This document shows positions 28,870 to 47,426 of a DNA stretch of 64,000 nucleotides, piece after piece. A model generated the notes under the pieces. That model did not search any database. It was not told where the DNA came from and worked only from the letters and a program-made list of their open reading frames with translations. Each line of letters opens with the position of its first letter. Position 1 is the first letter of the stretch. Origin of the DNA: Desulfoferula mesophila (GTDB lineage Bacteria; Desulfobacterota; Desulfarculia; Desulfarculales; Desulfarculaceae); NCBI RefSeq assembly GCF_037076455.1, contig NZ_AP028679.1, forward strand, positions 4,293,501 through 4,357,500, read 5' to 3'. The position numbers were made by a program, and so were the translations under genes.

Positions 28870-30180
28870 TTAACGGCCGAGCATGGTTTCGGGAAGCCAG
28901 GTCGCCATCCACGGAAAAGCTATGCAAAAAGCAATGACAATAAGTTCTCCTAAGAAGAAGGGAGATATACCTTTAAAGATCTTTTCCAATGGCACATCTG
29001 GAGCAACACCGCTAATTACAAAGACGTTTACACCCACAGGCGGGGTGATCAGGGCCACCTCAGCCATAACTACACAGATGACCCCGAACCAGATTCCGCT
29101 GAAACCAAGGCCGATGATGACAGGGAACACTATGGGCAAGGTCAGCACCAACATACCGTATACGTCAAGAATCATGCCCAATATCAGGTAGATTGCCAGC
29201 AGGGCTATTACTAGGAGATATTTGTTCACCTCCATACCCAAAAGCAGGTTAACTAGATACTCGGTCGCCCCTGTGAGAGCCAGGAAACGCGAGTACAAGA
29301 TACCGCCATAAACGATGGCCAGGATCATGGCAGTCAGACGTACTGTCTCCCGCAGGGCCTTAAGAAAAAGGCCCTTTGTCATGCGCTTCATGAGCACTGT
29401 CAACAACAGGGCCATAGATGAGCCGATGCCCGCGCCTTCGGTGGGCGTGAACACACCTGCGTAGATGCCGCCGATCACCGAAAGGAACAGCAGCAAGATA
29501 GGCCAGACAGCCTTCACACTCTTCCAGCGCTCCACCCAGGAAAAAGTGGGGCCGGTGGGACTGAGTTTCTTGTTCCAAAGGCACCAGAAGTAGATAACAC
29601 CAGCGAAAACCAACACCGTAACTATGCCTGGGATAACCCCGGCCATGAAAAGCTGTCCCACCGACTCCTCAGTCATGGCTCCATAGAAGACAAACACCAA
29701 GCTAGGTGGAATTAGCACCCCTAAGGTGCCGGAAGCGGCAAGGCATCCGGTGGATAGCTTGGAATCGTACCCATAACGGTCCATTTGGGGTTTGGCCAGG
29801 GAGCCGATGGTGGAGGCAGTGGCAGCGCTGGAGCCAGTTATGGCCCCAAAGCCGGCGCAGGCAAAAACAGTGGCTATAGCCAAGCCACCTTTCCAGTGTC
29901 CAAACCATTTATAGGCTGCAGCGTAAAGGTCCTTTGCTATACCCGAATTAGAGACGATGAAACCCATCAAGATGTATAATGGTATGCATACCATAACGAA
30001 GTTTTCAGCACTTTCGTGCCAGCCAACTAACAGCAGTTGAGATATTGCCGTGTCAAAGCCAGCAAAGTATGCATAACCTAAAAAACCCGTCAGCAACATG
30101 CTAAAAGCAATGGGTATACCCAACGCCACGCACGCCATTAGAACGAAAACACTAATTAGACCTAGAAACTCGTTGCCCAT
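28870..30180 (-). CDS. dctM: TRAP transporter large permease (DctM), system 2
   Basis: A 436-residue membrane protein with DctM hallmarks: ITGSSAATASTIGSLAKPQM, GVLIPPSLVFVFYGAMTEES, FTPTEGAGIGSSMALLLTV and ITPPVGVNVFVISGVAPD. About 12 transmembrane segments. It is the third gene of the array from 31990 and paralogous to 14431-15735. It forms the transport channel for the ligand of the receptor at 30848. Confidence 0.93.
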   Translation of the reverse strand: MGNEFLGLISVFVLMACVALGIPIAFSMLLTGFLGYAYFAGFDTAISQLLLVGWHESAENFVMVCIPLYILMGFIVSNSGIAKDLYAAAYKWFGHWKGGLAIATVFACAGFGAITGSSAATASTIGSLAKPQMDRYGYDSKLSTGCLAASGTLGVLIPPSLVFVFYGAMTEESVGQLFMAGVIPGIVTVLVFAGVIYFWCLWNKKLSPTGPTFSWVERWKSVKAVWPILLLFLSVIGGIYAGVFTPTEGAGIGSSMALLLTVLMKRMTKGLFLKALRETVRLTAMILAIVYGGILYSRFLALTGATEYLVNLLLGMEVNKYLLVIALLAIYLILGMILDVYGMLVLTLPIVFPVIIGLGFSGIWFGVICVVMAEVALITPPVGVNVFVISGVAPDVPLEKIFKGISPFFLGELIVIAFCIAFPWMATWLPETMLGR

Positions 30181-30241
30181 ATGCTTGTTTAACCTATGTC
30201 CTTTGAGATTCCAGATTTATCAATCTATTGGACTCGTGAGA

Positions 30242-30772
30242 CTACACTGCTTTCTCATAAACGAAAGTAGCGCGCAAATATCTAAAAAAGTCCACAATCA
30301 TCTGGATCGTGAACACTAGACATCCTATAAGGTAAATGATGCGGAAAGGCCAAAGTACTACGTTGGCTTCGAAGGTGATTTCGTGCAGTTCGATGGCGTC
30401 AATTACAGCATAAAATGATTGAAGTGACATAAATCCGAATACCGTCGATCCCGCCAAGGCCGCCAAGGCCCAGCAGAAATTCCGTCCTCTCTTGGGAAGG
30501 ATTCGCACAAGAAGCTCCATCCTTATGTGGCCGCGCCGCGTCCAGCAATAGGACAAAGAAAGTAGAACCAGGATCATCATCAAGAGGCAGTTAACGTCGT
30601 TAGCACCACGGATTGGGGCATTGAATATATCCCTCAGGATAACGTCAATTGTGACTAGGCACATCATAGCTACGAGAACGATTACTGACCCGACTTGTGC
30701 GAACCAGTAGCTTATGAAGTCGATAAATATCTTGTGCTGGTATATCGAATTATCGATCCCATGATCTTCCAT
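30242..30772 (-). CDS. dctQ: TRAP transporter small permease (DctQ), system 2
   Basis: A 176-residue membrane protein with four hydrophobic segments and the DctQ pattern CLVTIDVILRDIFNAPIRGANDV, later RRGHIRMELLV. The ATG at 30772 has GGTGGG upstream; an upstream in-frame start (30832) would give an atypical N-terminus. Confidence 0.85.
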   Translation of the reverse strand: MEDHGIDNSIYQHKIFIDFISYWFAQVGSVIVLVAMMCLVTIDVILRDIFNAPIRGANDVNCLLMMILVLLSLSYCWTRRGHIRMELLVRILPKRGRNFCWALAALAGSTVFGFMSLQSFYAVIDAIELHEITFEANVVLWPFRIIYLIGCLVFTIQMIVDFFRYLRATFVYEKAV

Positions 30773-30847
30773 GATCCCACCTGTCAATATGATAATATTT
30801 GCCATGCCCGTCGACATTCGGACGACGGGCATGGCTCGATCATGAAG

Positions 30848-31990
30848 TTACCAAAGCTTGTCCATGGGAACTGGGTTTGTTCTTTGGAGATCCAACATTT
30901 GTTGTTTCGTAAAATTTTTGTACTTGTCGTTAAGAGCTTCCATCTCCTTAATTAGTTGTTTGGCCGGTAAGCCCTTGCCTTCCATGTCCTTCACCCACTG
31001 GTCCACAACCGGCTGTGCGGCCGCTTTCCACCGTTTGACTTCATCGGGAGGCAGTTTGATGATCTTTACGCCGTGTTCCTCGAAAGCCTTGCGAGCACCG
31101 GGGGTATGGTCCTCATAAGAGGCTGAAATATTAATGCCAGTCTCGCGCGCCGCCCCGTACACCAGCTTCTTAAGATCCGGAGGCAGTTTCTTGAGCCAAC
31201 CGGGGTTGACGATGCCCGAGGTAGGTGCAAAAGCAGCTAGGCCGGGGCCGATCTCCGTCACATACTTGCAGACCTCATAGAGCTTGTAACTTTGGGCACT
31301 GGCCCAGGAGAAGATGCACGCGTCAACCATGCCTCTTTGCATAGCGGTGTAAATCTCGGGAGAGGGTACCACCACAGGAACCATGCCGTATCCTTCGAGT
31401 AGCTTGTTGAGCATGCCGCCTCCGCTGCGAACCTTCATGCCCTTAAGCTGCTCCAATTTGGTAACCGGCTTGTTGGTGAACAGATGGTAATTACTAGTAG
31501 AGGACATAAGCAGAAGCTTGCATCCTAGAGCCTCATAATCCTTTTTGAAATACTTGGGGTAGAGCTCTTCCAAAGCGCGAGCGGCAACGTAAGCATTTTC
31601 CCACATGAAGGGAAGCCCGGCCCCCATGACCAGCGAAAAACCCGTTGGCGAATAGTTTGGATAGGCTGGTGATACGTCGCAAATATTGCCACGCACAGCT
31701 TTGAATCCGGCATTTGCCTTGAACAATACCCCGCCTACAAACTCTTTGACTTTGATTTTTCCTTTAGTCCGTTGGTCCACCAAAGTAGTGAAGGTATGCC
31801 AACCTTCGGAGTACATATGGTGACCAGGACTTAGATAAATGCCGTAGCGACAGGGTATTGGCGAGCCGGTGTAGGTTATCGGCACGTCTACATAAGGCAT
31901 TTTCTCAGCAGCCATGACTGGCTGGCCCATCACGATCAGATTCACCAATAAAAGGATCATCAGCGCGAACAAAACGCTTTTCTTGGCCAT
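30848..31990 (-). CDS. dctP: TRAP transporter periplasmic receptor (DctP), system 2
   Basis: A 380-residue secreted binding protein. The ATG at 31990 follows GGAGGGAG and starts a signal peptide (KKSVLFALMILLLVNLIVMG, cleavage near VMAAEK). The mature part has the DctP pattern: LKGMKVRSGGGMLNKLLEGY and GMVDACIFSWASAQS. It is the first gene of a 15-gene leftward array ending at 17580, so its ligand is probably the array's substrate. A TTTTTGTCGACATG motif lies about 90-105 bases upstream. Confidence 0.9.
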   Translation of the reverse strand: MAKKSVLFALMILLLVNLIVMGQPVMAAEKMPYVDVPITYTGSPIPCRYGIYLSPGHHMYSEGWHTFTTLVDQRTKGKIKVKEFVGGVLFKANAGFKAVRGNICDVSPAYPNYSPTGFSLVMGAGLPFMWENAYVAARALEELYPKYFKKDYEALGCKLLLMSSTSNYHLFTNKPVTKLEQLKGMKVRSGGGMLNKLLEGYGMVPVVVPSPEIYTAMQRGMVDACIFSWASAQSYKLYEVCKYVTEIGPGLAAFAPTSGIVNPGWLKKLPPDLKKLVYGAARETGINISASYEDHTPGARKAFEEHGVKIIKLPPDEVKRWKAAAQPVVDQWVKDMEGKGLPAKQLIKEMEALNDKYKNFTKQQMLDLQRTNPVPMDKLW

Positions 31991-32078
31991 TTGCTCCCTC
32001 CGCCTTTCAGCCAATTCAAAATGCGATGGCAAAAATCGGTAACCGACGCCCTCTGAAATACGGTGAAACCACGCTAAC

Positions 32079-34330: not shown

Positions 34331-35167
34331 ATGAGGGCAGCATTTACCCTCACACCGGCTGAGTCTCGCCGATTGATCGCCAAGGCGGTGGTCGAGTTGG
34401 AAGAAGTACGTCACGCCGTGCATGACGCATACGTAATCATTAGTGGAGGGACCACCAACGGGTACATCGCACAGGAGCTAGCGGGTGCCAAGAACCTAGA
34501 ACCTCAGAAGTTCACTGCTGGCACTAACACCCACCGCCTTCTCTGCGTGACCGACGAAAATAAACGCACGCCGTTCCCCATTATTCTGCACAAAGGCCAG
34601 GTGGTGGCCAAAACAACTCCCGAGGTGTTTCAGGATTTTAATGTAAACACAGTGATAATTAAGGGTGCGAATGCCATTGACCCGGATTGGAACGTGGGTG
34701 TGGTAGTGGCTGGCTTCGACGGTGGCACAATGGGCAAAACCATGGGCACGGTGCAATCCCAGGGGCTACGCTACATCGTACCGGTTGGCTTGGAGAAGAT
34801 GGTACCCTCAGTACACGCCGCGGCCGCCGCAGTGGGCGCAAAGCGCCTGGACTACTGTTTGGGAGCCGACTTCGGTATGGTCATTATGCCCAACGCAGTG
34901 GTGGTCACCGAATTAGAGTCATTGGAAGTCCTGTGCGGTGTGGAGGCTACCCATGTGGCCTCAGGGGGTGTGGGCGAATCAGCCGGTTCGGTGGTACTAG
35001 TGGTGGAGGGCAATAAACCTGATGTCGAGGCAGCCATCAAGCTGGTAGAGGGCATCAAGGGAGAACCTGTTTTGCCAGGTTTTAAAGGTACTTGTAAGTC
35101 ATGTCGCTACGCCTGCAGGTTTAGAGGGACCGAGTTGGCCGACCTGCCGGCATGGCTTACCGACTGA
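34331..35167 (+). CDS. Unrecognised protein with C-terminal Cys cluster
   Basis: A 278-residue protein; the ATG at 34331 follows AAGGAGGAGCAAC. I do not recognise a named family. It begins MRAAFTLTPAESRRLIAKAV and contains YVIISGGTTNGYIAQELAG, which resembles the glycine/threonine phosphate loop of the NagB/RpiA/CoA-transferase fold, a fold also used by LUD proteins. Further on are VVVAGFDGGTMGKTMGTVQS and GADFGMVIMPNAVVVTE. The tail GTCKSCRYACRFRG has three Cys in CxxCxxxC spacing. No signal or membrane segment. It follows the GntR gene in the same direction and is probably part of its regulon. Confidence 0.8.
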   Translation: MRAAFTLTPAESRRLIAKAVVELEEVRHAVHDAYVIISGGTTNGYIAQELAGAKNLEPQKFTAGTNTHRLLCVTDENKRTPFPIILHKGQVVAKTTPEVFQDFNVNTVIIKGANAIDPDWNVGVVVAGFDGGTMGKTMGTVQSQGLRYIVPVGLEKMVPSVHAAAAAVGAKRLDYCLGADFGMVIMPNAVVVTELESLEVLCGVEATHVASGGVGESAGSVVLVVEGNKPDVEAAIKLVEGIKGEPVLPGFKGTCKSCRYACRFRGTELADLPAWLTD

Positions 35168-35177
35168 AGCACCAGCA

Positions 35178-35340
35178 TGTGAGGACTCAGACCTCGCCAC
35201 ACATTGATCATGCCAATTGTAGCTTTTCCCTTACTAGTTCATAAGGGGTCTTCCCCTGAGCGACCTTTGGGGCCGGCAATAGTTGTAGGAGCTTTCCCAT
35301 TCAACCAGCTTTCGATTAAAGTCCACGCCACCTATCTTGC
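35178..35340 (-). pseudogene. IS3-family OrfB C-terminal fragment plus right end
   Basis: On the minus strand it reads GVDFNRKLVEWESSYNYC then a frameshift in RPQRSLRG and ends at a TGA (35210-35208). The element's right end GCGAGGTCTGAGTCCTCAC follows (to about 35179). It is the same IS family as 2967-3141 but in the opposite orientation, starting 10 bases after the stop of the unknown gene. No start or N-terminal part remains. Confidence 0.75.
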
Positions 35341-35480
35341 CTAAATAATTGTTTTCACTAGCTTTTTATGCTTTTTGGTGTTACACAGGGCCCATTTAAA
35401 AACTGTAGTAATATCAAATGGTTGTAAGAACTATCGGGCACCTAAGGGGCGTGAATTAAGATGGTGCCTTCTGATTTGTA

Positions 35481-35523
35481 TTGACAATAAATGTCTGCTA
35501 ACAGTAAACAGTAAACAGTAAAC
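35481..35523 (+). promoter_or_regulatory. Promoter-like element with a 7-bp tandem repeat
   Basis: TTGACA (35481-35486) is a good -35 box, followed after about 15 bases by three copies of AGTAAAC (from 35503, preceded by C). It is 40-80 bases upstream of the MmgE/PrpD gene and is the only promoter-like sequence I see for the rightward operon. The -10 box is unclear. Confidence 0.4.
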
Positions 35524-35564
35524 TAATAATCTGACGAAAAGCCTGCACCTCAAAGCGCACGTAT

Positions 35565-37001
35565 ATGAAATCTGACCGACTTATACCGCCTTCCCCTTCC
35601 TCTACTGCGGCCCCAACAGAGGCGGCCGCCCTTATCGCCCAGCACCTATACGACACATCTTTCGCCTGTATCCCCAGCGAGCTGCTTCCCGATCTAAAAT
35701 TGAAGCTGCTGGACACCATGGGATGCATGCTGGCTGGGAGCGGCGCGCCGGGTTGTCCGGAGTTGGTTGAGCTCTGCCGCGGCTGGGGTGGTGCCCCCCA
35801 AAGTCGGGTGGTGGGCCATGACTTGCGCCTGCCCGCTCCCATGGCCGCCTTAACCAACGGGACCATGGCTCGGGCGGTGGATTTTGACGATGTTTTCGAG
35901 CCCGGCACCCTACACGTCAGTGCCTCTTTGGTCCCAGCCGCCTTGGCGGTGGCCGAGGCCCAGGGAGGGGTGGACGGCAAGAGCCTATTAACCGCCCTGG
36001 CTCTGGGTGTGGACCTGATCTGTCGCCTCTCCCTGGCCATCCAGTTGCCGCCAGGGGTAAGCGGTATGAACTCCACCTTCCAGTGCGCCTATTTCGCGGC
36101 AGCGGCGGTGGCGGGCAAGCTCATGGGGCTGGAAGTGGAGGGCCTACGCCACGCCCTGGGCCTGGCCTACACCCAGGTGGCCGGTAATTCCCAAAATCTC
36201 CTTGAAGGTACCTTGGCTATACGTTTGAACCAGGGATTGGCCGCTCAAGGTGGGGTCATGGCGGCCGAATTGGCGAGAGTCGGTTTAACCGCCGCGCGGG
36301 ATTCGCTGGAGGGCAAGTTCGGCTATTTCATGGTCTATCAGAGGGGCGCGTATGACCGCGACCGGCTGTTGGAGGGCTTGGGCCAAAGGTATTACGGACC
36401 GGAAGTGACCCAAAAGATCTATCCCTGCTGCATGCACACCCACGCGGCCATCGAGGCCCTGCAAGAGGTCAAGGCCAAGCACCTGATCGACGAGGCCCAG
36501 ATCGCCCGCATAAGGGTGGGGCTGAATCAACAAGGCTACAACTTCGTGGGCGCCGCCTCGTCGGATAAAATTACCCCCCGGAGCGTGCCGGAGGCCCAGT
36601 TCAGCATTTACCACGTATTGGCGGCCTCCTTTGCCACCGGCCGGCTCGCAACGGCTGATTTCGAACCAGCGACCCTGGTCTTGCCGGAGGTACGCGACCT
36701 GGCTGGACGGGTGGAATGTTGGGTGGACCCCGATCTGCAGGAGCGATGCCCATCCGGAGTCAGCCCTGCGCGGGTACGCGTGGAAACTCGCGACGGACGG
36801 GTGCTTGAGGCTCTAGGCCGCGAGCGGCGAGGGACTCCCGCTAACCCCCTTAGCCGCCAAGAGGTGATGAACAAGTTCCTGGGCTGCGCGCGGGGTGCAG
36901 CCCGGCCCGTGGAGCCGGAGCAAGCCTTGCGCGCCGCTAGGTTGGTGGAGCGCTTGGAGGAACTCAATGATGTCGGGCAAATTTTAGCCGCCCTTGCATA
37001 G
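35565..37001 (+). CDS. MmgE/PrpD family protein
   Basis: A 478-residue cytoplasmic protein of the family that includes 2-methylcitrate dehydratase, aconitate decarboxylase and iminodisuccinate epimerase. Visible hallmarks are LLDTMGCMLAGSGAPG, NGTMARAVDFDDVFEPGTLH (active-site Asp and His region), AYFAAAAVAGKLMGLE, GLAYTQVAGN and KIYPCCMHTHAAIEAL. The length is normal. No strong ribosome-binding site precedes the ATG. It is first in a rightward operon with a tripartite tricarboxylate transporter, so a di- or tricarboxylate is the likely substrate; the exact reaction cannot be read. Confidence 0.88.
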   Translation: MKSDRLIPPSPSSTAAPTEAAALIAQHLYDTSFACIPSELLPDLKLKLLDTMGCMLAGSGAPGCPELVELCRGWGGAPQSRVVGHDLRLPAPMAALTNGTMARAVDFDDVFEPGTLHVSASLVPAALAVAEAQGGVDGKSLLTALALGVDLICRLSLAIQLPPGVSGMNSTFQCAYFAAAAVAGKLMGLEVEGLRHALGLAYTQVAGNSQNLLEGTLAIRLNQGLAAQGGVMAAELARVGLTAARDSLEGKFGYFMVYQRGAYDRDRLLEGLGQRYYGPEVTQKIYPCCMHTHAAIEALQEVKAKHLIDEAQIARIRVGLNQQGYNFVGAASSDKITPRSVPEAQFSIYHVLAASFATGRLATADFEPATLVLPEVRDLAGRVECWVDPDLQERCPSGVSPARVRVETRDGRVLEALGRERRGTPANPLSRQEVMNKFLGCARGAARPVEPEQALRAARLVERLEELNDVGQILAALA

Positions 37002-37053
37002 GTTCCTGTCTGGACTCGGCGCCCCGGTTGGGTGCCGGGAATGAGAAAAAAAG

Positions 37054-38349
37054 ATGCGCCGAATAAATCTCGAGGTGTTGTTGTTGGTTTTAGGAGTCCT
37101 GGCTGTGGCTCTGCTGACCTCGCTGGATGTCCTGGGCTTCCGGGGATCGGTAGCCGGGGCCATCGGGCCGGGGGTCTATCCGCTAACCGCCCTGGGACTC
37201 ATGTTGGTCACCGGCCTGATAATCGTCTATCGCGCCTGCAAGCCGATCAAATACAGCCTTTTCTCACCGTTTGGCAGCAGCGACCTGCGCGGCCTGGCCG
37301 TGGCGCGTCTGGCTCAGGTGATTGGCCGCGAAATGGGCGATCCGGTCAAGGTGTACAGCGGAGTGGGTCAAGGCAGCTTCTCCTCCATGTTCCAAGGCAG
37401 TCGGGCCAAGCCGGATGGACACAACTTTGTGGTCCTGGACGGCTCCTGTCCCACCCCCTCGCCCTTTAGCAACGCTGCCGAGTGCCTGGAGCGTTTTGTG
37501 CCGGTCATGCGGTTGAGCGACGACCCCTACCTGCTCTTGGGGCCCATCACTGCCGACAACGAGGCCGTGGACCTCCCCGGTTTGCTGGCGGCTGGGCCAT
37601 TGGGTTTCAGCGCGCAGCCGGAGGAAGTGGACTTTCTGTGCAGAGCCCTGTCCCACCGGGCGGGAGTGGCCGTGCAGAGCCGGGTCTTTGCCTCCACTCC
37701 CAGGGTGCTGCGCTCCCTGGCCCAAGGTGAGATAGCCGCCGCCTTCTGCCCTCTGGACGAGTTGGCGGCCGGCGACCTGACTCATCGGCATTATCGGTTG
37801 TTGGCGGTGGGGGCTCCGGCCCGGCTGGCCGAGCTTCCCGAGATCCCCACTCTGCTGGAGTTGGGGTTGGACCTGTGCCTAGGACACTGGACCGTCCTGG
37901 CCTATCCTAAGGGGGCGAGCCGGGAACAGGTACGGGATTTATGGTCAATTCTTTCCCGGCCCGAAAACCAGGAAGCCGTAAGCCAGGGCATGCGGGGGCA
38001 CGGCATCCGTCCGGACCTGCTGGGCCCGGAGGAAACCGCAGAATTTTGGCGGGCTCAGGCCCAGGTGGCCCAGGAGATAGGGCGCGATACCGGTTATTGG
38101 CGGGCCGACCGTCAGATGGTCAGCCTTTATAAGGTGGTTGGGGTGCTGGCTCTGTTCTCCGCCTTCATGCTGCTGGCTCCGGTCACCGGCTATTTGCCGG
38201 CTTCCCTGGCCATGGTGCTGCTCCTAAGCCTGATTCTGTGGCCCGGACCCCTGAAAAGAGCCTTGCCCCTTATTACCCTGGTCAGTCTGGGGTCCTGCGT
38301 CGCGGTCTACCTGGTGTTCACCCAGGCCTTCATGGTTGTCTTTCCTTAA
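37054..38349 (+). CDS. TctB-like small permease with inserted TctC/Bug-like binding domain
   Basis: A 431-residue fusion. Residues 6-66 give two membrane segments of TctB type (LEVLLLVLGVLAVALLTSLD, GPGVYPLTALGLMLVTGLII). Residues about 75-345 resemble a Bug/TctC solute-binding domain: SSDLRGLAVARLAQVIGREM, AKPDGHNFVVLDGS, LPEIPTLLELGLDLC, HWTVLAYPKGASREQVRDLW. Residues about 355-431 return to TctB membrane segments ending CVAVYLVFTQAFMVVFP. Normal TctB proteins are about 150 residues and carry no such domain. It lies between the MmgE/PrpD and tctA genes, where tctB belongs; a separate tctC is at 39926. Positive charges around the inserted domain make its side of the membrane uncertain. Confidence 0.8.
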   Translation: MRRINLEVLLLVLGVLAVALLTSLDVLGFRGSVAGAIGPGVYPLTALGLMLVTGLIIVYRACKPIKYSLFSPFGSSDLRGLAVARLAQVIGREMGDPVKVYSGVGQGSFSSMFQGSRAKPDGHNFVVLDGSCPTPSPFSNAAECLERFVPVMRLSDDPYLLLGPITADNEAVDLPGLLAAGPLGFSAQPEEVDFLCRALSHRAGVAVQSRVFASTPRVLRSLAQGEIAAAFCPLDELAAGDLTHRHYRLLAVGAPARLAELPEIPTLLELGLDLCLGHWTVLAYPKGASREQVRDLWSILSRPENQEAVSQGMRGHGIRPDLLGPEETAEFWRAQAQVAQEIGRDTGYWRADRQMVSLYKVVGVLALFSAFMLLAPVTGYLPASLAMVLLLSLILWPGPLKRALPLITLVSLGSCVAVYLVFTQAFMVVFP

Positions 38350-38361
38350 GGTGGCTGCGTT

Positions 38362-39858
38362 ATGAGCGAGTTCGTGTTGGGAATTTTCGGTGGTGTCTTT
38401 GACCCGTTCAGCCTTCTTATCATCGTGGAGGGCGTGGTACTGGGCATCATCGTGGGGGTGTTGCCGGGCCTTTCCGCCACCTTGGGGGTCGCCCTGGCCG
38501 CTCCCATCACCTTTGGCATGGACAGCCTGCAAGGCATCTTGTTGCTGCTTGGCATTTACGTGGGAGCCGTCTACGGCGGTTCCATCTCGGCCATTCTCTT
38601 GGGTATACCGGGCACGCCGGCGGCGGTGGCTACCGTTCTGGACGGCCAGCCCATGTCCAAGCGGGGTGAGGCCGGTCGTGCCATCGGCATCAGCACAATT
38701 TCCAGCTTCGTGGGCGGCTTGTTTGGGGTGGCGCTACTGGCGGTGCTGGCAAAGCCGGTAGGAATCTTTGGCTTGGCCTTTGGAGAACGGGAGTACCTGG
38801 CCCTGGGCATCCTGGCCCTCACCGCGGTGGCCCATCTTTCCGGGGCCTCCTTCATCAAAGGCGTGTTTTCGGTAGCAATCGGGCTGTTCGTGTCCACCAT
38901 CGGTATCGACGAAATTCACGGCATCCCCCGTTTCACCTTTGGCAACGTCGACATGCTTGGGGGCATCCCCTACATCCCGGTGATGATCGGGCTATTCGCC
39001 ATACCTGAGACCATGATATCCATCGAGCAACTCTCGGCGGTCAAACCCAAGTTTCCTCCCGTGGAGCGGGTGTTGCCCTCCAAGGGCATGCTGAGGGGCT
39101 TGTTCAAACCGGTTCTTCGCTCTTCGGTCATCGGAGGAGTGGTGGGCGCAGTTCCCGGTACCGGGGCGGACATCGCCGCCATCATCGCCTACGCTCAAGG
39201 CAAAGCCATGTCCAAGCATCCGGAAAAGTACGGCACTGGCTACCCCGAGGGCATTGCTTGTCCGGAGAGCGCCAACAACGCCGCCTGCGGTGGGGCCATG
39301 GTCCCCTTGCTCACCTTGGGCATCCCCGGGGGGGCGGTGACGGCGGTCATCATGGGTGCCTTTATGGTGCACGGCCTACAGCCGGGACCGCTGCTGATGG
39401 CCAACAACGCCGATATCGTCTACAAACTGGTGCTGGGTTTCGGGGTGGCCAACCTGGTCATGCTGACGGTGGGCTTGAGCGCGGCCAGATTTTTCGGCAA
39501 GGTATCACGCATGCCCCAGGCGCTGCTAAACCCCATAATCATCTTGCTGTGCATCGCCGGTTCCTACAGCATGCGCAACAATTGGTTTGACGTCTACGTG
39601 ATGGGCATCTCTGGAATGTTCGGCTATGCTCTGATCAAAACCGGCATCCCTCGGCCACCCTTGGTCATCGGCATGATCCTGAGCGGCATGATCGAGTCCA
39701 ACCTGGCCCGTAGCGTCATGCTCTGCGCGGGTAACCCCATGATGTTTTTCACCCCAATCAGTACCGGTCTACTGATCCTTGCCGTGGCCCCCTTCAGCAA
39801 ACCTCTGGTGAAAAAAGTTTGGCGCTCGCTGCGCAGCCCAAGGCGGCAGCCCAACTGA
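38362..39858 (+). CDS. tctA: Tripartite tricarboxylate transporter large permease (TctA)
   Basis: A 498-residue membrane protein with about 10-12 hydrophobic segments. TctA hallmarks are GVLPGLSATLGVALAAPITF, YVGAVYGGSISAILLGIPGT, GAVPGTGADIAAIIAYAQGK (the second GxPGxG motif) and MVPLLTLGIPGGAVTAVIMG. It is the channel subunit for sodium-dependent uptake of citrate-like acids. It starts 12 bases after the fusion gene. Confidence 0.95.
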   Translation: MSEFVLGIFGGVFDPFSLLIIVEGVVLGIIVGVLPGLSATLGVALAAPITFGMDSLQGILLLLGIYVGAVYGGSISAILLGIPGTPAAVATVLDGQPMSKRGEAGRAIGISTISSFVGGLFGVALLAVLAKPVGIFGLAFGEREYLALGILALTAVAHLSGASFIKGVFSVAIGLFVSTIGIDEIHGIPRFTFGNVDMLGGIPYIPVMIGLFAIPETMISIEQLSAVKPKFPPVERVLPSKGMLRGLFKPVLRSSVIGGVVGAVPGTGADIAAIIAYAQGKAMSKHPEKYGTGYPEGIACPESANNAACGGAMVPLLTLGIPGGAVTAVIMGAFMVHGLQPGPLLMANNADIVYKLVLGFGVANLVMLTVGLSAARFFGKVSRMPQALLNPIIILLCIAGSYSMRNNWFDVYVMGISGMFGYALIKTGIPRPPLVIGMILSGMIESNLARSVMLCAGNPMMFFTPISTGLLILAVAPFSKPLVKKVWRSLRSPRRQPN

Positions 39859-39925
39859 GCGGGACTTTGACCCGCAATCGAACCTTAACGGGAAAAGGAT
39901 GGGAGTTATGAGAGGGAGGAAGACG

Positions 39926-40885
39926 ATGAGGCTGGTGGCGCTGGCTACCGCTTGTGTGGCTGTTCTTTGTACCTTGGCCGGGGCCGCTGTGGCCGGAGAT
40001 TACCCTGACAAGAAGATAGAACTAGTAGTGGCTTTCAATCCCGGCGGTGGCTCGGACACCTTTGGACGGGCCGTGGCCAGATTCGGCGAAAAGTACGTGG
40101 GACAGCCCATTTTCGTGACCAACCGGGCCGGAGGGGCTGGGGCGATCGGTTTCGTATATGGGGCCAAGGCCAAGCCCGATGGTTACACCCTGACGCTGGC
40201 GGTAACTACCCTAACCATCGCTCCCTATATGACCAAGGGTTATCCAGTCACCTACAAGGATTATGCGCCTTTGGCGCTGCTGGCCGTGGTTCCCTCCTGC
40301 ATCAGCGTGTCCGCCGAAAGCAAATACAAGACGCTGCAGGATTTTCTCAAAGATGCCAAGGCGCAGCCCGGCAAAATGCGCGTGGGCACCTCCGGCACGG
40401 GAAGCCCCTGGCACCTGGCCGGGGCGGCCCTGGGCAATGCCGCCAAGGTGAATTTCTCCTTCGTGCCCTATAAGGGGGCTGGTCCGACCATCACCGCCCT
40501 GATGGGAGGACACATAGATTCGGCCATCACCAGCGCCGCCGAAATTTTCCCGCATGTGCAGGCGGGCAAGGTGCGTGTTTTGGCCATCATCGCCGACAAG
40601 CGCTTCCCGGTCCTGCCTGATGTGCCCACCACCATCGAACTGGGGCTTAAAGCCAATGTGGTGGCCTGGCGAGGCCTGGTGGCGCCCAATAAAACCCCCA
40701 AGGATCGAGTGACCTACCTGATCAAGGCCATAACTAAGCTGTCCGAGGATAAGGAGTTCCTGGACTTCATGGCCAAAAACGGTGTCACTCCCCATCTGAT
40801 CACCGGCGAAAAATTCGGCCAATGGCTCAAGGTGCAAAGCGAGGACTATGCCAATTTGGTCAAGCTCACCGGCCTGGTCAAATAG
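39926..40885 (+). CDS. tctC: Tripartite tricarboxylate transporter binding protein (TctC/Bug)
   Basis: A 319-residue secreted receptor. The ATG at 39926 has AGGGAGGA upstream and opens a clean signal peptide (MRLVALATACVAVLC, cut near AVAGDYP); in-frame ATGs at 39899 and 39908 have poorer spacing. The Bug fold is shown by DKKIELVVAFNPGGGSDTFG, NRAGGAGAIGF, AKPDGYTL and GTSGTGSPWHLAGAAL. It delivers carboxylates to TctA. A strong hairpin follows the gene. Confidence 0.94.
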   Translation: MRLVALATACVAVLCTLAGAAVAGDYPDKKIELVVAFNPGGGSDTFGRAVARFGEKYVGQPIFVTNRAGGAGAIGFVYGAKAKPDGYTLTLAVTTLTIAPYMTKGYPVTYKDYAPLALLAVVPSCISVSAESKYKTLQDFLKDAKAQPGKMRVGTSGTGSPWHLAGAALGNAAKVNFSFVPYKGAGPTITALMGGHIDSAITSAAEIFPHVQAGKVRVLAIIADKRFPVLPDVPTTIELGLKANVVAWRGLVAPNKTPKDRVTYLIKAITKLSEDKEFLDFMAKNGVTPHLITGEKFGQWLKVQSEDYANLVKLTGLVK

Positions 40886-40903
40886 GTTAAGCGACATGGA
40901 ACC

Positions 40904-40955
40904 GGCAGGCGCCCACCCCTCATGACGAATCGCCAAGGGCGTAGGGGCGCCTGCC
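40904..40955. terminator. Strong inverted repeat after tctC
   Basis: GGCAGGCGCCC (40904-40914) and GGGCGCCTGCC (40945-40955) form an 11-bp stem with a 30-base loop. No T-run follows, so it may reduce read-through or protect the upstream mRNA rather than fully stop transcription before the creatininase-like gene. Confidence 0.5.
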
Positions 40956-41026
40956 GCCCTCGAGGCGCGGCATGGGCAAGCGCAAAGGCTAAAATCGTTA
41001 GCAGTCTGTATTAAGGAGAAGACGAC

Positions 41027-41830
41027 TTGTCACGCAAGAAACTCATGGAAGAAATGACTTGGACCGAGCTGCGGGAGGCCATGGCCTCGGCGGACACGGC
41101 CCTGATACCGACCGGCTCGGTGGAAGTGGAAGGCCCCCATTTGCCCCTAGCGGTGGATTCCATCGTAGCCATGGAGGTGGCCCGCCGGGTGGCCGATGCC
41201 ACCGAGGGAGTCATCGTGGCGCCCCTGTTCAACGTAACCTATTCCTCTTGGCACGGCGCCTTCTCGGGCACTCTGAGCCTGACCATGCCTACCCTGATGA
41301 CGGTGATGAGCCAGATTTGCCGCGACCTGTGCCGCCATGGTTTCAAGAGGCTGTTTTTCATCAACTCCCACATCGGGAATGATGCCTCCATTTGGAACAC
41401 CGCCAACGACCTTACCGCCGAGGGCTTGGCCCGGGTGGGCATGGTGAGCATTTGGCCGCTGGCCAGCGAGATGGGCCAGCACATGAGCGAGCTGAAGGAA
41501 AACTCTTTTTTGCACGCTGGCGAGATAATGACCTCGGTGGTGATGGCCATACGGCCGGACCTGGTGGACATGTCCCAGGCGGTGACGGAGTACCTAAAGC
41601 CTAAAAGCGAAGGCTACCAGCCCCTGCTCAGTTCCAAGTCCAAAGTTGGCGGGCGGGTGATAAGCATCTACCACACCTCGGAAGAACTGACCCAATCGGG
41701 GGTGATGGGCAACCCCAGCCAGGCTTCCGCGGATAAGGGCGAGATGATAATTGGTAACATGGTGGAGTATATCAGCCAGGCGGTGGATGAGTTCCGCCAA
41801 GTGCCCCTGCCCCCGGGCATCGGGGCGTGA
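41027..41830 (+). CDS. Creatininase-family protein with altered metal motif
   Basis: A 267-residue protein. The TTG at 41027 is preferred because AAGGAG lies 8-9 bases upstream; an ATG at 41045 is the alternative. The creatininase fold is shown by PTGSVEVEGPHLPLAVDS, FINSHIGND and FLHAGEIMTSVV. In the family the first motif is ExHGPHLPL; here the metal-ligand His is Glu (EVEGPHLPL). The other ligands (Asp, His of NSHIGN, Glu of HAGE) are kept. Family members hydrolyse cyclic amides such as creatinine or act in cofactor maturation. The replaced ligand leaves activity and metal content open. It lies after the transporter genes. Confidence 0.82.
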   Translation: MSRKKLMEEMTWTELREAMASADTALIPTGSVEVEGPHLPLAVDSIVAMEVARRVADATEGVIVAPLFNVTYSSWHGAFSGTLSLTMPTLMTVMSQICRDLCRHGFKRLFFINSHIGNDASIWNTANDLTAEGLARVGMVSIWPLASEMGQHMSELKENSFLHAGEIMTSVVMAIRPDLVDMSQAVTEYLKPKSEGYQPLLSSKSKVGGRVISIYHTSEELTQSGVMGNPSQASADKGEMIIGNMVEYISQAVDEFRQVPLPPGIGA

Positions 41831-41948
41831 GTCATGGGCAGCCGCGGAACTTGCCTTGAATTGCGAGTTCGCGTGGTATGAAATGACATGCCGTCGGCTG
41901 CCCCGCGGCTGGTGCTCGGTATGAAACCTTTCCGGGAAAGCATGCTCG

Positions 41949-42680
41949 ATGAGTTCTATAATAAAGCCGCCCAAAACCATATCCGAACAGGTGCTGGAGG
42001 TTCTGGAGGAGGAGATCCTCTCTGGCTTCTACCAGCCCGGTGATCGTATGGTGGAAACCGAGATCGCCAAACGCCTGGGGGTAAGCCGTGGGCCGGTGCG
42101 TGAGGCCCTGCTGGTGCTGGAGAGCCGGGGACTCCTCCAGGAAAAAATCGGAATGGCCAAAGGCCGGGAAGTGGTATCGCTCAGCGGGCAGGATCTCAGG
42201 CAATGTTACCAGGTGCGCATCTTCATAGAGACCCAGGGCCTCATCGCCCACGCTAAGAGCACCGACCAGCGGGTGCTGGATAAGTTGGAGGAGATGACCC
42301 GGGGGATGGACGAAATAGTGCGCCAGGGCAACACAAAGGCCTACCGAGAGGCCAATACTGCCTGGCATTACGTCATTGTTAGCGCTCTGAACAATCCCCG
42401 CCTGCACGACTTTTACCAGGACAATGACCGCATCATCCGCTGGTTCGCCGGGTTCACCCTGGATCCGGTCCGCCTAGCCCGCTCCAATCAAGAGCACCGT
42501 CATATCCTTGAGGCCTGCCGCCGTCAGGATGTAGCGACTATCGTGGACATATTGTATGAGCACCAAACCCAGGCCTTGGAGCGGGTGTTAAACAAGCTGA
42601 AGGAGGCCTCTCGCCTCCCAACCGAAAACCCACCGGCGGGCCCGGCCCGCCCTCGTCGTCGTAAGGGAGAACAGCCATGA
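41949..42680 (+). CDS. GntR-family regulator, FCD type, second
   Basis: A 243-residue regulator. The winged helix contains ISEQVLEVLEEEILSGFYQP and LGVSRGPVREALLVL; the FCD domain contains NTAWHYVIVSALNNPRL and EHRHILEACRRQD. The C-terminal tail is rich in Pro and Arg. Its stop overlaps the DUF169 start by four bases (ATGA), so the two are translationally coupled. It probably controls the operon from 35565. Confidence 0.9.
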   Translation: MSSIIKPPKTISEQVLEVLEEEILSGFYQPGDRMVETEIAKRLGVSRGPVREALLVLESRGLLQEKIGMAKGREVVSLSGQDLRQCYQVRIFIETQGLIAHAKSTDQRVLDKLEEMTRGMDEIVRQGNTKAYREANTAWHYVIVSALNNPRLHDFYQDNDRIIRWFAGFTLDPVRLARSNQEHRHILEACRRQDVATIVDILYEHQTQALERVLNKLKEASRLPTENPPAGPARPRRRKGEQP

Positions 42681-43504
42681 TTAGCTTAGAAGAAGTACAC
42701 AAGCTGGGGACCGAACTGGAAATATGGTTGCGCATGCGCAGCCATCCAATAGCTTTCAAAATGCTAAAGAGCATTGACGAAGTCCCCGAAGACGCCATCA
42801 TTCCCACCCGGGACTGGAAGCATAAATACGCCTTGTGCCAAGCCATGGCCAAGGCACAGCGCGACGGCATGACCATCGCGATGTTTAAGGACGATAACTG
42901 GTGCTTCGAGCCGGTGCTGGGCCTGGGCCTAGTGCCGCCTCGTCCCGAGTTCTTTGAGGGCCATCACCGCTATCCGGACAGTGTGCGCGATCTGCAGGAC
43001 GCGGCCAGGTGGTGCCAGAACATGCCCCGCCTGGAGTTCGGCCAGTACCTAGGCCTGGTAGTGGCGCCCATCAACACCTGCAGTTTCATGCCCGACCTCG
43101 TGGTTATGCACGTAAATGGCCTGCAGACCAGTCAACTCCTCATCATTAAATGCTGGCTGGACGGCAAGGACGTGCCTTCCCAACTCTCAGGCCACGCAGC
43201 CTGCGTATACTGCACCGTGCCCTCTCTGATCCAGCAGGAGTGTCAGGTTGCCATTCCTTGCAAGGGAGACCGCCGCCTTGCTATGGCCCAAGACGACGAA
43301 CTGCTCTTCACCCTGCTGCCGGAGATGCTGCCCGGATTCATGGAGGGGGCTAACTTCCTGCAGAAGCATAACTGGGGCCTACCTCTGAAGCAGGAGTACA
43401 AGGAAGAGTATGACCTGAAGCCTGGCTACTGCGAGATGGCTGAGATGCACGGTATGGATATGCAGCAGTCGCCCCCTCGGCAGCAAAAGTTCCAAAAGCA
43501 CTAG
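42677..43504 (+). CDS. DUF169-family protein
   Basis: A 275-residue cytoplasmic protein of the DUF169 type, shown by the opening LRMRSHPIAFKML, CQAMAKAQRDGMTIAM, CFEPVLGLGLVPPRPEFFEG and CVYCTVPSLIQQ. The family is common in anaerobes and methanogens but has no assigned function. Cys residues near CEMAEMHGMDM and CVYC could bind metal. It is the last gene of the rightward operon and overlaps the GntR stop. Confidence 0.8.
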   Translation: MISLEEVHKLGTELEIWLRMRSHPIAFKMLKSIDEVPEDAIIPTRDWKHKYALCQAMAKAQRDGMTIAMFKDDNWCFEPVLGLGLVPPRPEFFEGHHRYPDSVRDLQDAARWCQNMPRLEFGQYLGLVVAPINTCSFMPDLVVMHVNGLQTSQLLIIKCWLDGKDVPSQLSGHAACVYCTVPSLIQQECQVAIPCKGDRRLAMAQDDELLFTLLPEMLPGFMEGANFLQKHNWGLPLKQEYKEEYDLKPGYCEMAEMHGMDMQQSPPRQQKFQKH

Positions 43505-44228: not shown

Positions 44229-44350
44229 TGTTTGGCGTCAGAGCCCCTGGGACAGATTTTAGGTTTTAGCTAATGGAGCCTCCTAGGTAAGATCACCCGT
44301 CAAAGGAGTGAGCCATGAGCAATGATGAAGGGGCGGAGAACAAGGTCCTA
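44229..44350 (+). mobile_element. Left end of the IS3-family element (third copy)
   Basis: TGTTTGGCGTCAGAGCCCCT and the following leader match the left end and orfA leader seen in reverse at 2957-2860, including AAGGAGTGAGCCATGAGC. OrfA starts at 44315 (MSNDEGAENKV) but homology stops about 12 codons in, where a phosphoglucomutase fragment begins on the other strand. It marks a deletion or recombination breakpoint. Confidence 0.75.
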
Positions 44351-45001
44351 GGACGCGTGACCCTTGCCTTGCTCCGGCGGCACCGCTGCCAAGGCAGCGC
44401 TGACGATCTCCTGGGCTTCCTCCTCAATGCGGCGCAGGTGATCCGCCCCCTGGAGGCTCTCCGCGTAAATTTTGTAGATGTCCTCGGTTCCTGACGGACG
44501 CGCCGCGAACCATCCGTTCTCGGCCACTACTTTGAGCCCACCTATGGGGGCGCCGTTGCCCGGCGCATGGGTTAGAACGGCCTGGATTTTTTCTCCCGCC
44601 AATTCGGCGAGAGTTACTTGCCGGGGGGAGAGATTGGCCAACAGCTTCTTTTGATCCGCAGTGGCAGGCGCCTCGATGCGGTCATAGACCGGCTCACCTA
44701 ATTCGCGCGTGAGATCGTGGTAAATTTCGCCGGGATTGCGGCCCATGCGAGCCGTTATCTCCGCAGCCAGCAAGGCCAGGGCAATGCCATCCTTGTCCGT
44801 CGTCCAGACGCTGCCGTCCAGACGGGCGAAAGAGGCTCCGGCGCTCTCTTCGCCGCCAAAGCCCAGGGAGCCGTCCAGCAGGCCTTCCACAAACCACTTG
44901 AAACCGACGGGCACCTCGTAGAGTTTGCGGCCGAGTTTCGCGGTGACGCGATCTATCATCAAGCTGCTGACCACGGTTTTGCCGACTGCCGCCGACTCTC
45001 G
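44348..45001 (-). pseudogene. pgm: Phosphoglucomutase, C-terminal fragment
   Basis: The frame left of the IS21 element reads [19 protein letters not shown] and continues with the ends of domains 3 and 4 of alpha-D-glucose phosphoglucomutase: [20 protein letters not shown] (sugar-binding loop), [33 protein letters not shown] and [19 protein letters not shown] (phosphate-binding loop). The N-terminal two thirds with the phosphoserine are missing, cut by the IS21 left end at 45002. An internal start could be translated, but the product cannot catalyse phosphotransfer. The gene's other part is not in the window. Confidence 0.85.
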
Positions 45002-45153
45002 TGTAAATGGCGGTCCAAAAGCGAGACGATTTTAGTGGCGGTTGAAAACCGTGACACATTGATTCAGTTTTCTTCAGGTGTTTTGGTGCGATGGAGGCCA
45101 TGGTGGCTTCCAGGCCAGGACTCTCTGGAGGAGCGGAAGGGGTGTACACGGAC

Positions 45154-46653
45154 ATGGATCAATGGGCCCGGATCAGACTTGAGTTGCGCGATGGCCAGGC
45201 GAGCAAGCGCGAGTTAATGCGTAGAGAGGGCATCCATTGGGATACCCTGCAAAAGATTCAGAATTTTCCCGAGCCTCCCGGATACCGGCTCAGCACCCCC
45301 CGAGCCAAGCCCAAGCTTGGCCCCTACCTTGAGTTGATCGCCCGGATCATAAAAGAGGACAAAAAGGTTCCCAAGAAGCAAAGGCACACGGCCACGCGCA
45401 TATATCACCGCATCAAGGAGGCGGGTTATCAGGGCAAGTACACCCAGGTAAAGGAGGCGGTGCGCGCAATCAAGCGCGTGAGCCAGGAGGTGTACATGCC
45501 CCTGGTCCATCGTCCCGGCGAGGCGCAGGTGGACTTTGGCTATGCCCTGGCCAAGGTTTCCGGGGAGCTTCGCAAGATAGCGCTTTTTATCATGGCCTTG
45601 CCGTACTCCGATGCCTTTTTCGTGGCGGCCTTCGACAAGGAGTGCAGCGAGAGCTACTGGGAAGGGCATGCCAGGGCGTTCGAGTTTTTCGGTGGGGTGC
45701 CCCACCGGATCAGTTACGACAATAGCAAGGTCCTGGTTTCCAAGATCATAGGGCCTCATGAGCGCAAGCTGACCGATGGTTTTCTCAAGCTGCAGAGCCA
45801 TTACCTTTTTCGGGAGCATTTTTGTCGGGTGCGGCGTCCAAACGAGAAGGGCGTGGTGGAAGGGGTGGTCAAGTACGCCCGGCAGAATTTTTTGGTGCCA
45901 GTGCCCCAGGTGAAGGACCTGGCCGAGCTCAATGCCATGCTTTTAAGGCAGTGCCGCGACGACATGAAGCGCCGTTTGCGTGGCAAGGGCGGTAGCAAGG
46001 CCGAGGTTTTGCAGGAAGACCAGACAGCCTTTGTCCCCCTGCCTCCCTCCCGCTTCGATGCCTGCCGCAAACAGCCTACCCGGGCCAATTCATTGTCCCT
46101 GGTCCGCTTCGACGACAATGACTACTCGGTGCCGGTGGCTTGTGCCCACCATGAAATTGTGGCCAAGGGCTATGTGGATCGGGTGGTGCTCTGCCACCAT
46201 GACGTGGTGGTGGCCCGCCACTCCCGATCCTGGGGCAAGGAAGGGGTGTTTTTCGACTACCGGCATTATCTGCCCTTGCTGGAGCGCAAGCCTGGCTCCC
46301 TGGACCACGCCCGCCCCCTGGCTGACCTAGATCTGTCTGAGTGCTTTGAGGTCTTGAGGCGGCGGCTGGTGGCCGGGGAAGACATGCCTGGCCAGGGCAC
46401 CCGTAAATACATAAAGGTCCTACGTTTGCTGGAGGACCACTCCATGGCCAGACTGAAGCGGGCGGTGGAGCAGGCATTGTACGCGGGAGCCTATGCCCCG
46501 GAGGCCATTGTCCACCTGCTGGAGCCGCCATCATCAGGGCCCGCGGCCACCTTCCTGCTGGACGGTCGTGAGCACCTGGGCCGAGTGAGCGTGGCCGGGC
46601 CCGATATCACAGTCTATGACTCCCTCCTCGCGCAGGGAGGGGCGCTGTCATGA
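45154..46653 (+). CDS. istA: IS21 transposase IstA, copy 2
   Basis: Identical 499-residue protein to 7072-8571, with the same HTH, DDE catalytic residues and start choice. Identity across both genes and flanks points to recent transposition or gene conversion. Confidence 0.95.
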   Translation: MDQWARIRLELRDGQASKRELMRREGIHWDTLQKIQNFPEPPGYRLSTPRAKPKLGPYLELIARIIKEDKKVPKKQRHTATRIYHRIKEAGYQGKYTQVKEAVRAIKRVSQEVYMPLVHRPGEAQVDFGYALAKVSGELRKIALFIMALPYSDAFFVAAFDKECSESYWEGHARAFEFFGGVPHRISYDNSKVLVSKIIGPHERKLTDGFLKLQSHYLFREHFCRVRRPNEKGVVEGVVKYARQNFLVPVPQVKDLAELNAMLLRQCRDDMKRRLRGKGGSKAEVLQEDQTAFVPLPPSRFDACRKQPTRANSLSLVRFDDNDYSVPVACAHHEIVAKGYVDRVVLCHHDVVVARHSRSWGKEGVFFDYRHYLPLLERKPGSLDHARPLADLDLSECFEVLRRRLVAGEDMPGQGTRKYIKVLRLLEDHSMARLKRAVEQALYAGAYAPEAIVHLLEPPSSGPAATFLLDGREHLGRVSVAGPDITVYDSLLAQGGALS

Positions 46654-47426
46654 AGGACCAGGACAAACCCACCGTGCTCTTGGAGTACCACCTCAAAAAG
46701 CTGAAGCTGCCCACCATTCTCCGGGAATACGCGGCCATGGCCAAGGTCTGCAGCCAAGACCGCTCCGATTACATGACCTACCTGCTGCGCCTGACCGAGC
46801 GGGAGCTTCTGGACCGCGAGAAGCGGGCAGCCGAAAGGCGCATCAAGCAAGCCGCCTTTCCGGTGATCAAGACCATGGACACCTTTGATTTCAAGGCACA
46901 GCCCTCCATCAATCAGCAGCTGGTCAGGGAGCTGATGAGGGGCGAGTACATCGCCAAAAAGGAAAACGTGCTCCTGATCGGAAACTCCGGCACCGGCAAG
47001 ACCCACCTGGCCAGCGCCATGGCCTTTGCGGCCTGCGCCCAGGGAAGCAAGGTGAAATTCTACAGCGCCACCGCCCTGGTCACAGAGCTCATGGAATGCC
47101 GCGAGGAAAGACGTCTGCAACGCCTGCAGAAACAGCTCCAGCGCCTACACCTGCTGGTCATCGATGAACTGGGCTATGTGCCCTTCTCCAAGATAGGCGC
47201 TCAAATGCTATTCGAGGTGGTGGGTAGGGCATATGAACAACAAAGCCTCATGATCACCACCAATCTCCCTTTCCAGCAATGGACGGAGGTCTTCGGCTCC
47301 GAAAGACTCACCGGTGCACTGCTGGACAGACTGACCCATAGGTGCCACATCATCGAGGCCAATGGAGAAAGCTACCGGCTCCGCCAAGCCAAAAGACGAT
47401 CCCAGGCAAAGCCCAAAACCAACTAA
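46650..47426 (+). CDS. istB: IS21 helper ATPase IstB, copy 2
   Basis: A 258-residue AAA+ protein with the standard GNSGTGKTHLA. It differs from copy 1 only at the His that follows Walker A (Gln in copy 1). It overlaps istA by ATGA. This copy is the more likely donor of the fully active form. Confidence 0.95.
   Translation: MKDQDKPTVLLEYHLKKLKLPTILREYAAMAKVCSQDRSDYMTYLLRLTERELLDREKRAAERRIKQAAFPVIKTMDTFDFKAQPSINQQLVRELMRGEYIAKKENVLLIGNSGTGKTHLASAMAFAACAQGSKVKFYSATALVTELMECREERRLQRLQKQLQRLHLLVIDELGYVPFSKIGAQMLFEVVGRAYEQQSLMITTNLPFQQWTEVFGSERLTGALLDRLTHRCHIIEANGESYRLRQAKRRSQAKPKTN

Follow-up and report, generated by a model that had tools for sequence, protein, structure and literature searches.

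A TctB subunit with an inserted Bug/TctC-fold domain in a tripartite tricarboxylate transporter operon of Desulfoferula mesophila

The window (the whole stretch of 64,000 nucleotides of Desulfoferula mesophila DNA that was analysed) contains an operon for a tripartite tricarboxylate transporter (TTT), in which the tctB product carries an inserted domain of the binding-protein type. The frame of this fused tctB runs unbroken from ATG to TAA over 431 codons. The features of the locus are listed below in window coordinates, each with the evidence used.

35565..37001, + strand: MmgE/PrpD family gene directly upstream of the fused tctB (Pfam; also directly upstream of the SM23_61 relative)
37054..38349, + strand: fused tctB, a TctB with an inserted Bug/TctC-fold domain, 431 aa (open frame, Pfam, BLASTP, phmmer, structure match, full-length relatives)
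37054..37239, + strand: TctB N-terminal part with TM1 and TM2, residues 1-62 (profile of 44 ordinary TctBs and 3 fused ones; model helices 6-26 and 41-61)
37240..38109, + strand: inserted Bug/TctC-fold domain, residues about 63-352, predicted to be cytoplasmic (BLASTP, phmmer, structure, charge statistics)
37267..37293, + strand: remnant of the domain-1 ligand loop, P72-F-G-S-S-D-L-R-G80, compared with the canonical PFxAGGxxD (comparison with ordinary TctCs; motif from PMC5812351)
37603..37638, + strand: second pincer loop, where G184-FSAQPEEVDFL replaces the canonical G(T/S)xGxGSxxHLA (comparison with ordinary TctCs)
38119..38346, + strand: TctB C-terminal part with TM3-TM5, residues 356-431 (Pfam TctB 356-431; model helices 358-378, 381-395 and 404-429)
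38362..39858, + strand: tctA, permease subunit (PF01970), starting 12 bp past the fused tctB (Pfam)
39899..40885, + strand: tctC, normal secreted Bug/TctC binding protein with signal peptide (Pfam TctC, 188.6 bits)
41027..41830, + strand: creatininase-family amidohydrolase (Pfam; homologue in the SM23_61 cluster)
41949..42680, + strand: GntR/FCD regulator (Pfam; homologue in the SM23_61 cluster)
42677..43504, + strand: DUF169 (COG2043) protein (Pfam; 69.5% identical homologue in the SM23_61 cluster)

The family motif GPG.(Y/F)P precedes TM2 in the N-terminal part of the fused TctB, and the inserted domain lies internal to the membrane protein without a signal peptide of its own. The normal tctC that an earlier note on this DNA had placed downstream was confirmed at 39899-40885, signal peptide included. 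NCBIfam gave no match for the products of the fused tctB, tctA or tctC, a sequence search of the PDB yielded no relative of TctA, and repeats of at least 25 bases were absent from positions 35000-43500 of the window. By eye, a complete TRAP transporter (DctP, DctQ, DctM-like) was seen just upstream of the TTT cluster at 28870-32032 (- strand). Some 1.6 kb past the cluster lies an IS21-like istA/istB pair (45091-47426), and beside it a fragment at 44348-44974 (- strand) resembles the C-terminal part of a phosphoglucomutase, both judged by eye from the translation.

Two protein families were recognized in the product of the fused tctB. Pfam TctB (PF07331) matched it in two stretches with 43.5 bits (E 4.6e-11, cut-off 29.1), and both relatives described below also exceeded this cut-off. 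Since TctB has five helices, these are split two plus three around the insert. Pfam TctC (PF03401) matched the middle part at E 8e-5 with 22.7 bits for the whole protein and 24.3 for the middle alone, below its cut-off of 27; the SM23_61 relative passed it with 36 bits and the Thalassobaculum relative gave no match. In a BLASTP comparison with the TctC of the same operon 294 residues were aligned at 22% identity (E 4e-13), and a phmmer search of the middle part against the PDB returned Bug/TctC proteins as the only matches (best E 1.3e-7). The AlphaFold model consisted of two helices, a two-lobed alpha/beta domain and three helices, with a mean pLDDT of 67 (about 70-88 across most of the middle and 40-60 in the helices). 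Residues 64-346 of the model were superimposed on the Polaromonas TctC structure 4X9T with Z 27.3 over 279 residues (rmsd 3.2). All Bug/TctC entries reached Z 21-27, compared with 14.7 for the best other binding protein. A second fused member, modelled separately, reached Z 25.9, and both models showed the Type II two-lobed Bug fold. The predicted fold was partly prompted, because the six rows given to AlphaFold included TctC sequences; the sequence matches are independent of this. We concluded that the protein is a TctB with a complete Bug/TctC-fold domain between TM2 and TM3. The position that the earlier note had assigned to the domain was borne out by sequence comparison and structure prediction alike, and its size, given there as about 270 residues, was corrected to about 290 (63-352).

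Looking for the same fusion in other genomes, as the earlier note had suggested, yielded two full-length relatives. The whole-genome profile search covered Desulfobacterota, and 2 of the 395 genomes carried the fusion, the source genome and the MAG Deltaproteobacteria SM23_61 (E 6e-67, about 32-33% identity over residues 2-431). The other relative, of 431 codons, is encoded on a plasmid of the alphaproteobacterium Thalassobaculum sp. OXR-137 (E 1e-18, 25-26% identity over 403 alignment columns). It was missed when the fused product was searched against plasmids with tblastn, and was located via its TctA, the closest TctA in the plasmid collection, which the fused gene precedes. On this complete plasmid it is one gene, annotated only as "TctB family protein" (WP_322335086.1). 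Peptide-pattern scans of 84,980 species genomes matched SM23_61 only, scans of viral contigs detected ordinary secreted TctCs and no fusion, and the fusion was absent from the 7 other genomes of the same genus and from the rest of the 63 genomes of the class. A contig-end match in genome G228 was a truncated ordinary TctC and was rejected. An assembly or annotation artefact has a negligible probability: the source genome is a single contig, and the same architecture recurs in a separate MAG and as one annotated gene on a complete plasmid, so that the fusion is found in three independent genomes.

The three carriers represent three classes and two phyla. All three have the order fused tctB, tctA, tctC, each with its own normal tctC. 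The TctA of the window was 69% identical to its SM23_61 counterpart and 54% to that of Thalassobaculum, and for TctC the values were 63% and 41%. The closest TctAs in the Desulfobacterota sample belong to the two fusion carriers, and these two also have in common an MmgE/PrpD gene immediately before the fused tctB, as well as homologues of the creatininase-family, GntR and DUF169 genes. The SM23_61 tctA beside the fused tctB (L029:4879-6153) seems frame-broken near its 3' end, possibly a sequence error of the MAG. Since two distant relatives share the operon while other genomes of the same genus and class are without the fusion, the unit appears to be rare, of old origin and spread by horizontal transfer.

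The three fused domains formed one clade (99/99) in a tree of 62 binding domains, with long branches outside the sampled secreted TctCs, and were no recent copies of the neighbouring TctCs, which formed their own clade (100/100). The TctB halves of the three fused proteins grouped as well (99/77). That fused domains, TctB halves and partner TctCs each group is best accounted for by a single capture, after which the unit was inherited as a whole, with the long branches calling for caution; a single origin of the fusion is supported by the binding-domain tree and less firmly by the TctB part. Between the window and SM23_61 the identity was 31% for the fused domain, 37% for the TctB helices, 63% for TctC and 69% for TctA, and the fused domain is the least conserved part of the operon, diverging faster than the separate TctC. 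TctB evolves quickly throughout, as its helices show, so fast change alone is no proof of lost binding.

Bug proteins grip the ligand carboxylate between two loops, and PFxAGGxxD is a near-universal motif of the first (PMC5812351). To compare the loop residues we used 59 ordinary TctCs as reference. The first loop reads PFGSSDLRG in the window, PFAAGSGKG in SM23_61 and PFVPGLLDD in Thalassobaculum; none of them has the canonical motif, and the remnant is fuller in the two relatives than in the window. In the window protein G76 (100% in ordinary TctCs), G77 (95%) and D80 (98%) are replaced by S, D and G. Across the three fused domains the second glycine, G77, became D, S and L, and R84 (92% of the reference set) became A, N and H. 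In lobe 2 the residues G189, P211 and G214 (71-86% of the reference set) were altered in all three, so that G77, R84, G189, P211 and G214, conserved in 71-95% of the 59 ordinary TctCs, are changed in every fused domain. The PF of the first loop and both lobes were kept in all three, and the fused domains have SPF and GxGxFS(A/S) as common signatures particular to them. The neighbouring TctC retains its pincer loops, unlike the fused domain. Judged by these residues, the canonical carboxylate site is no longer maintained, and the fold is. Because the lobes and the PF are kept, a different ligand may still bind.

The divergence and the loss of signatures would also fit a structural scaffold or relic, which neither binds ligand nor regulates and is tolerated or merely stabilises the complex. 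A neutral insert is expected to be lost or broken, however, and here the domain has stayed open, complete and two-lobed in three lineages that are far apart (25-31% identity) and carries new signatures common to all of them; we therefore consider a scaffold or relic distinctly unlikely.

To evaluate on which side of the membrane the domain resides, the five hydrophobic segments of 44 ordinary TctBs were aligned with those of the three fused proteins. The TM2-TM3 loop comprised 15-36 residues in the ordinary TctBs and was their most basic loop (mean 5.5 K/R). The side formed by the N-terminus, the TM2-TM3 loop and the TM4-TM5 loop contained on average 10.6 K/R, the other side 3.3, and the positive-inside direction was the same in 43 of the 44 with one tie (Wilcoxon p 1e-8). 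For the fused proteins, with only the flanks of the insert counted, the values were 2+6+2 against 1+0+0 (10 vs 1) in the window, 11 vs 0 in SM23_61 and 7 vs 3 in Thalassobaculum. The N-terminus of TctB has been predicted to be cytoplasmic (Winnen et al. 2003, as cited in PMC5812351). The domain segment has 6 cysteines in the window protein (C63 included) and 3 and 2 in its two relatives, compared with a mean of 1.5 in secreted TctCs, a count that weakly fits a reducing compartment. On account of the charge statistics of ordinary and fused TctBs and the earlier N-terminus-inside prediction, the insert in the TM2-TM3 loop is predicted to lie in the cytoplasm. The earlier note had read a cytoplasmic loop from the border charges, and all three fused proteins and 43 of 44 ordinary TctBs agree with it.

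Known binding-protein fusions face outside (TAXI-GltS, PMC12344293) and the domain family is normally periplasmic, so a tethered periplasmic receptor was weighed, in which the fused TctB would be inverted and its domain would hand substrate to TctA from outside. This is quite improbable, as the charges point the opposite way both in the fused proteins and in 43 of 44 ordinary TctBs, all three operons encode a complete separate TctC, and the ligand loops are eroded. The domain could instead be a cytoplasmic sensor that closes the transporter when imported substrate binds to it inside the cell (trans-inhibition). The charge statistics and the intact two-lobed fold agree with such a sensor, and MetNI and ModABC are known examples of trans-inhibition through cytoplasmic domains (PMC10710835). 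Sensing the same acid should nevertheless have kept the pincer loops, which are changed in all three fused domains while the neighbouring TctC keeps them, and we regard this sensor as unlikely. More generally, with the pincer signatures eroded in all three members and a cytoplasmic charge pattern, a built-in receptor in the ordinary sense is unlikely. That claim of the earlier note was not upheld: in each of the three members gripping residues have been altered or lost, and the domain outpaces the separate TctC in divergence.

We tentatively favour, while stopping short of calling it probable, that a captured binding-protein fold serves the transporter on the cytoplasmic side, in regulation or docking. 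This proposal starts from the observed fusion, fold match, single clade of fused domains, shared operon and change of signature residues. A single capture would have placed a complete TctC-type binding protein in TctB, within the cytoplasmic TM2-TM3 loop; the unit of fused tctB, tctA and tctC would then have spread between distant bacteria. Substrate would still be captured from outside by the separate secreted TctC, and the captured domain would have kept its two-lobed fold and lost the carboxylate pincer. By binding some other ligand, such as a metabolite of the cytoplasm, or a partner protein, such as a co-encoded enzyme, it could alter TctA activity. Within this proposal the single capture with spread and the cytoplasmic side are inferred, the latter from the charge statistics, and the regulatory or docking role is a guess by analogy with MetNI and ModABC, importers controlled by added cytoplasmic regulatory domains (PMC10710835). 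It is conceivable but doubtful that the domain, in the cytoplasm, gates the TTT transporter by binding the compound brought in or the first metabolite made from it; it would then be an inside-facing allosteric receptor derived from an outside-facing binding protein.

The function of TctB is unknown (PMC5812351). The fused protein demonstrates that the TM2-TM3 loop tolerates, and perhaps uses, a module of partner size, and the insert offers a way to learn which side this loop faces and what its contacts are. Should the domain prove to regulate transport, this would be, within the literature searched, the first post-translational control in the TTT class, and a binding protein would have been turned to face the cytoplasm.

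With ordinary TctB (PF07331, TC 2.A.80) the fused protein shares the five-helix plan, the GPG.(Y/F)P motif and the place in the tctB-tctA-tctC operon; it differs by a 290-residue domain between TM2 and TM3, where 44 ordinary TctBs have a loop of 15-36 residues. With TctC/Bug proteins (PF03401; 4X9T, Bug27, TphC) the domain shares the whole-domain fold and recognisable sequence, but it has no signal peptide of its own, is built into a membrane protein and has changed gripping signatures. MetNI and ModABC (PMC10710835) likewise carry an extra soluble cytoplasmic domain on an importer. This is a functional analogy only, as their folds and transporter class are unrelated, and their regulation is known whereas that of the fused TctB is conjectural. 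In the literature searched, fusions of TctA with TctB (PMC5812351) and of TAXI with GltS (PMC12344293) were reported, and no binding-protein fold inside TctB. Of the new TTT architecture proposed in the earlier note the fusion itself stands, and a receptor role in the ordinary sense is unlikely. The TctA-TctB fusions, as in Paraburkholderia caribensis (PMC5812351), are alike in fusing TTT subunits; they join two membrane subunits end to end, whereas here a binding-protein fold is inserted in TctB. The genome studied here also encodes a 645-residue end-to-end TctA-TctB fusion of this rare kind (L007:4-1941, near C1:2902875). TAXI-GltS (PMC12344293) and GlnPQ-type ABC importers resemble the fused TctB in having a binding-protein domain covalently attached to the transporter; their domains are end-joined and outside the membrane, whereas the domain described here is internal and predicted to be cytoplasmic.
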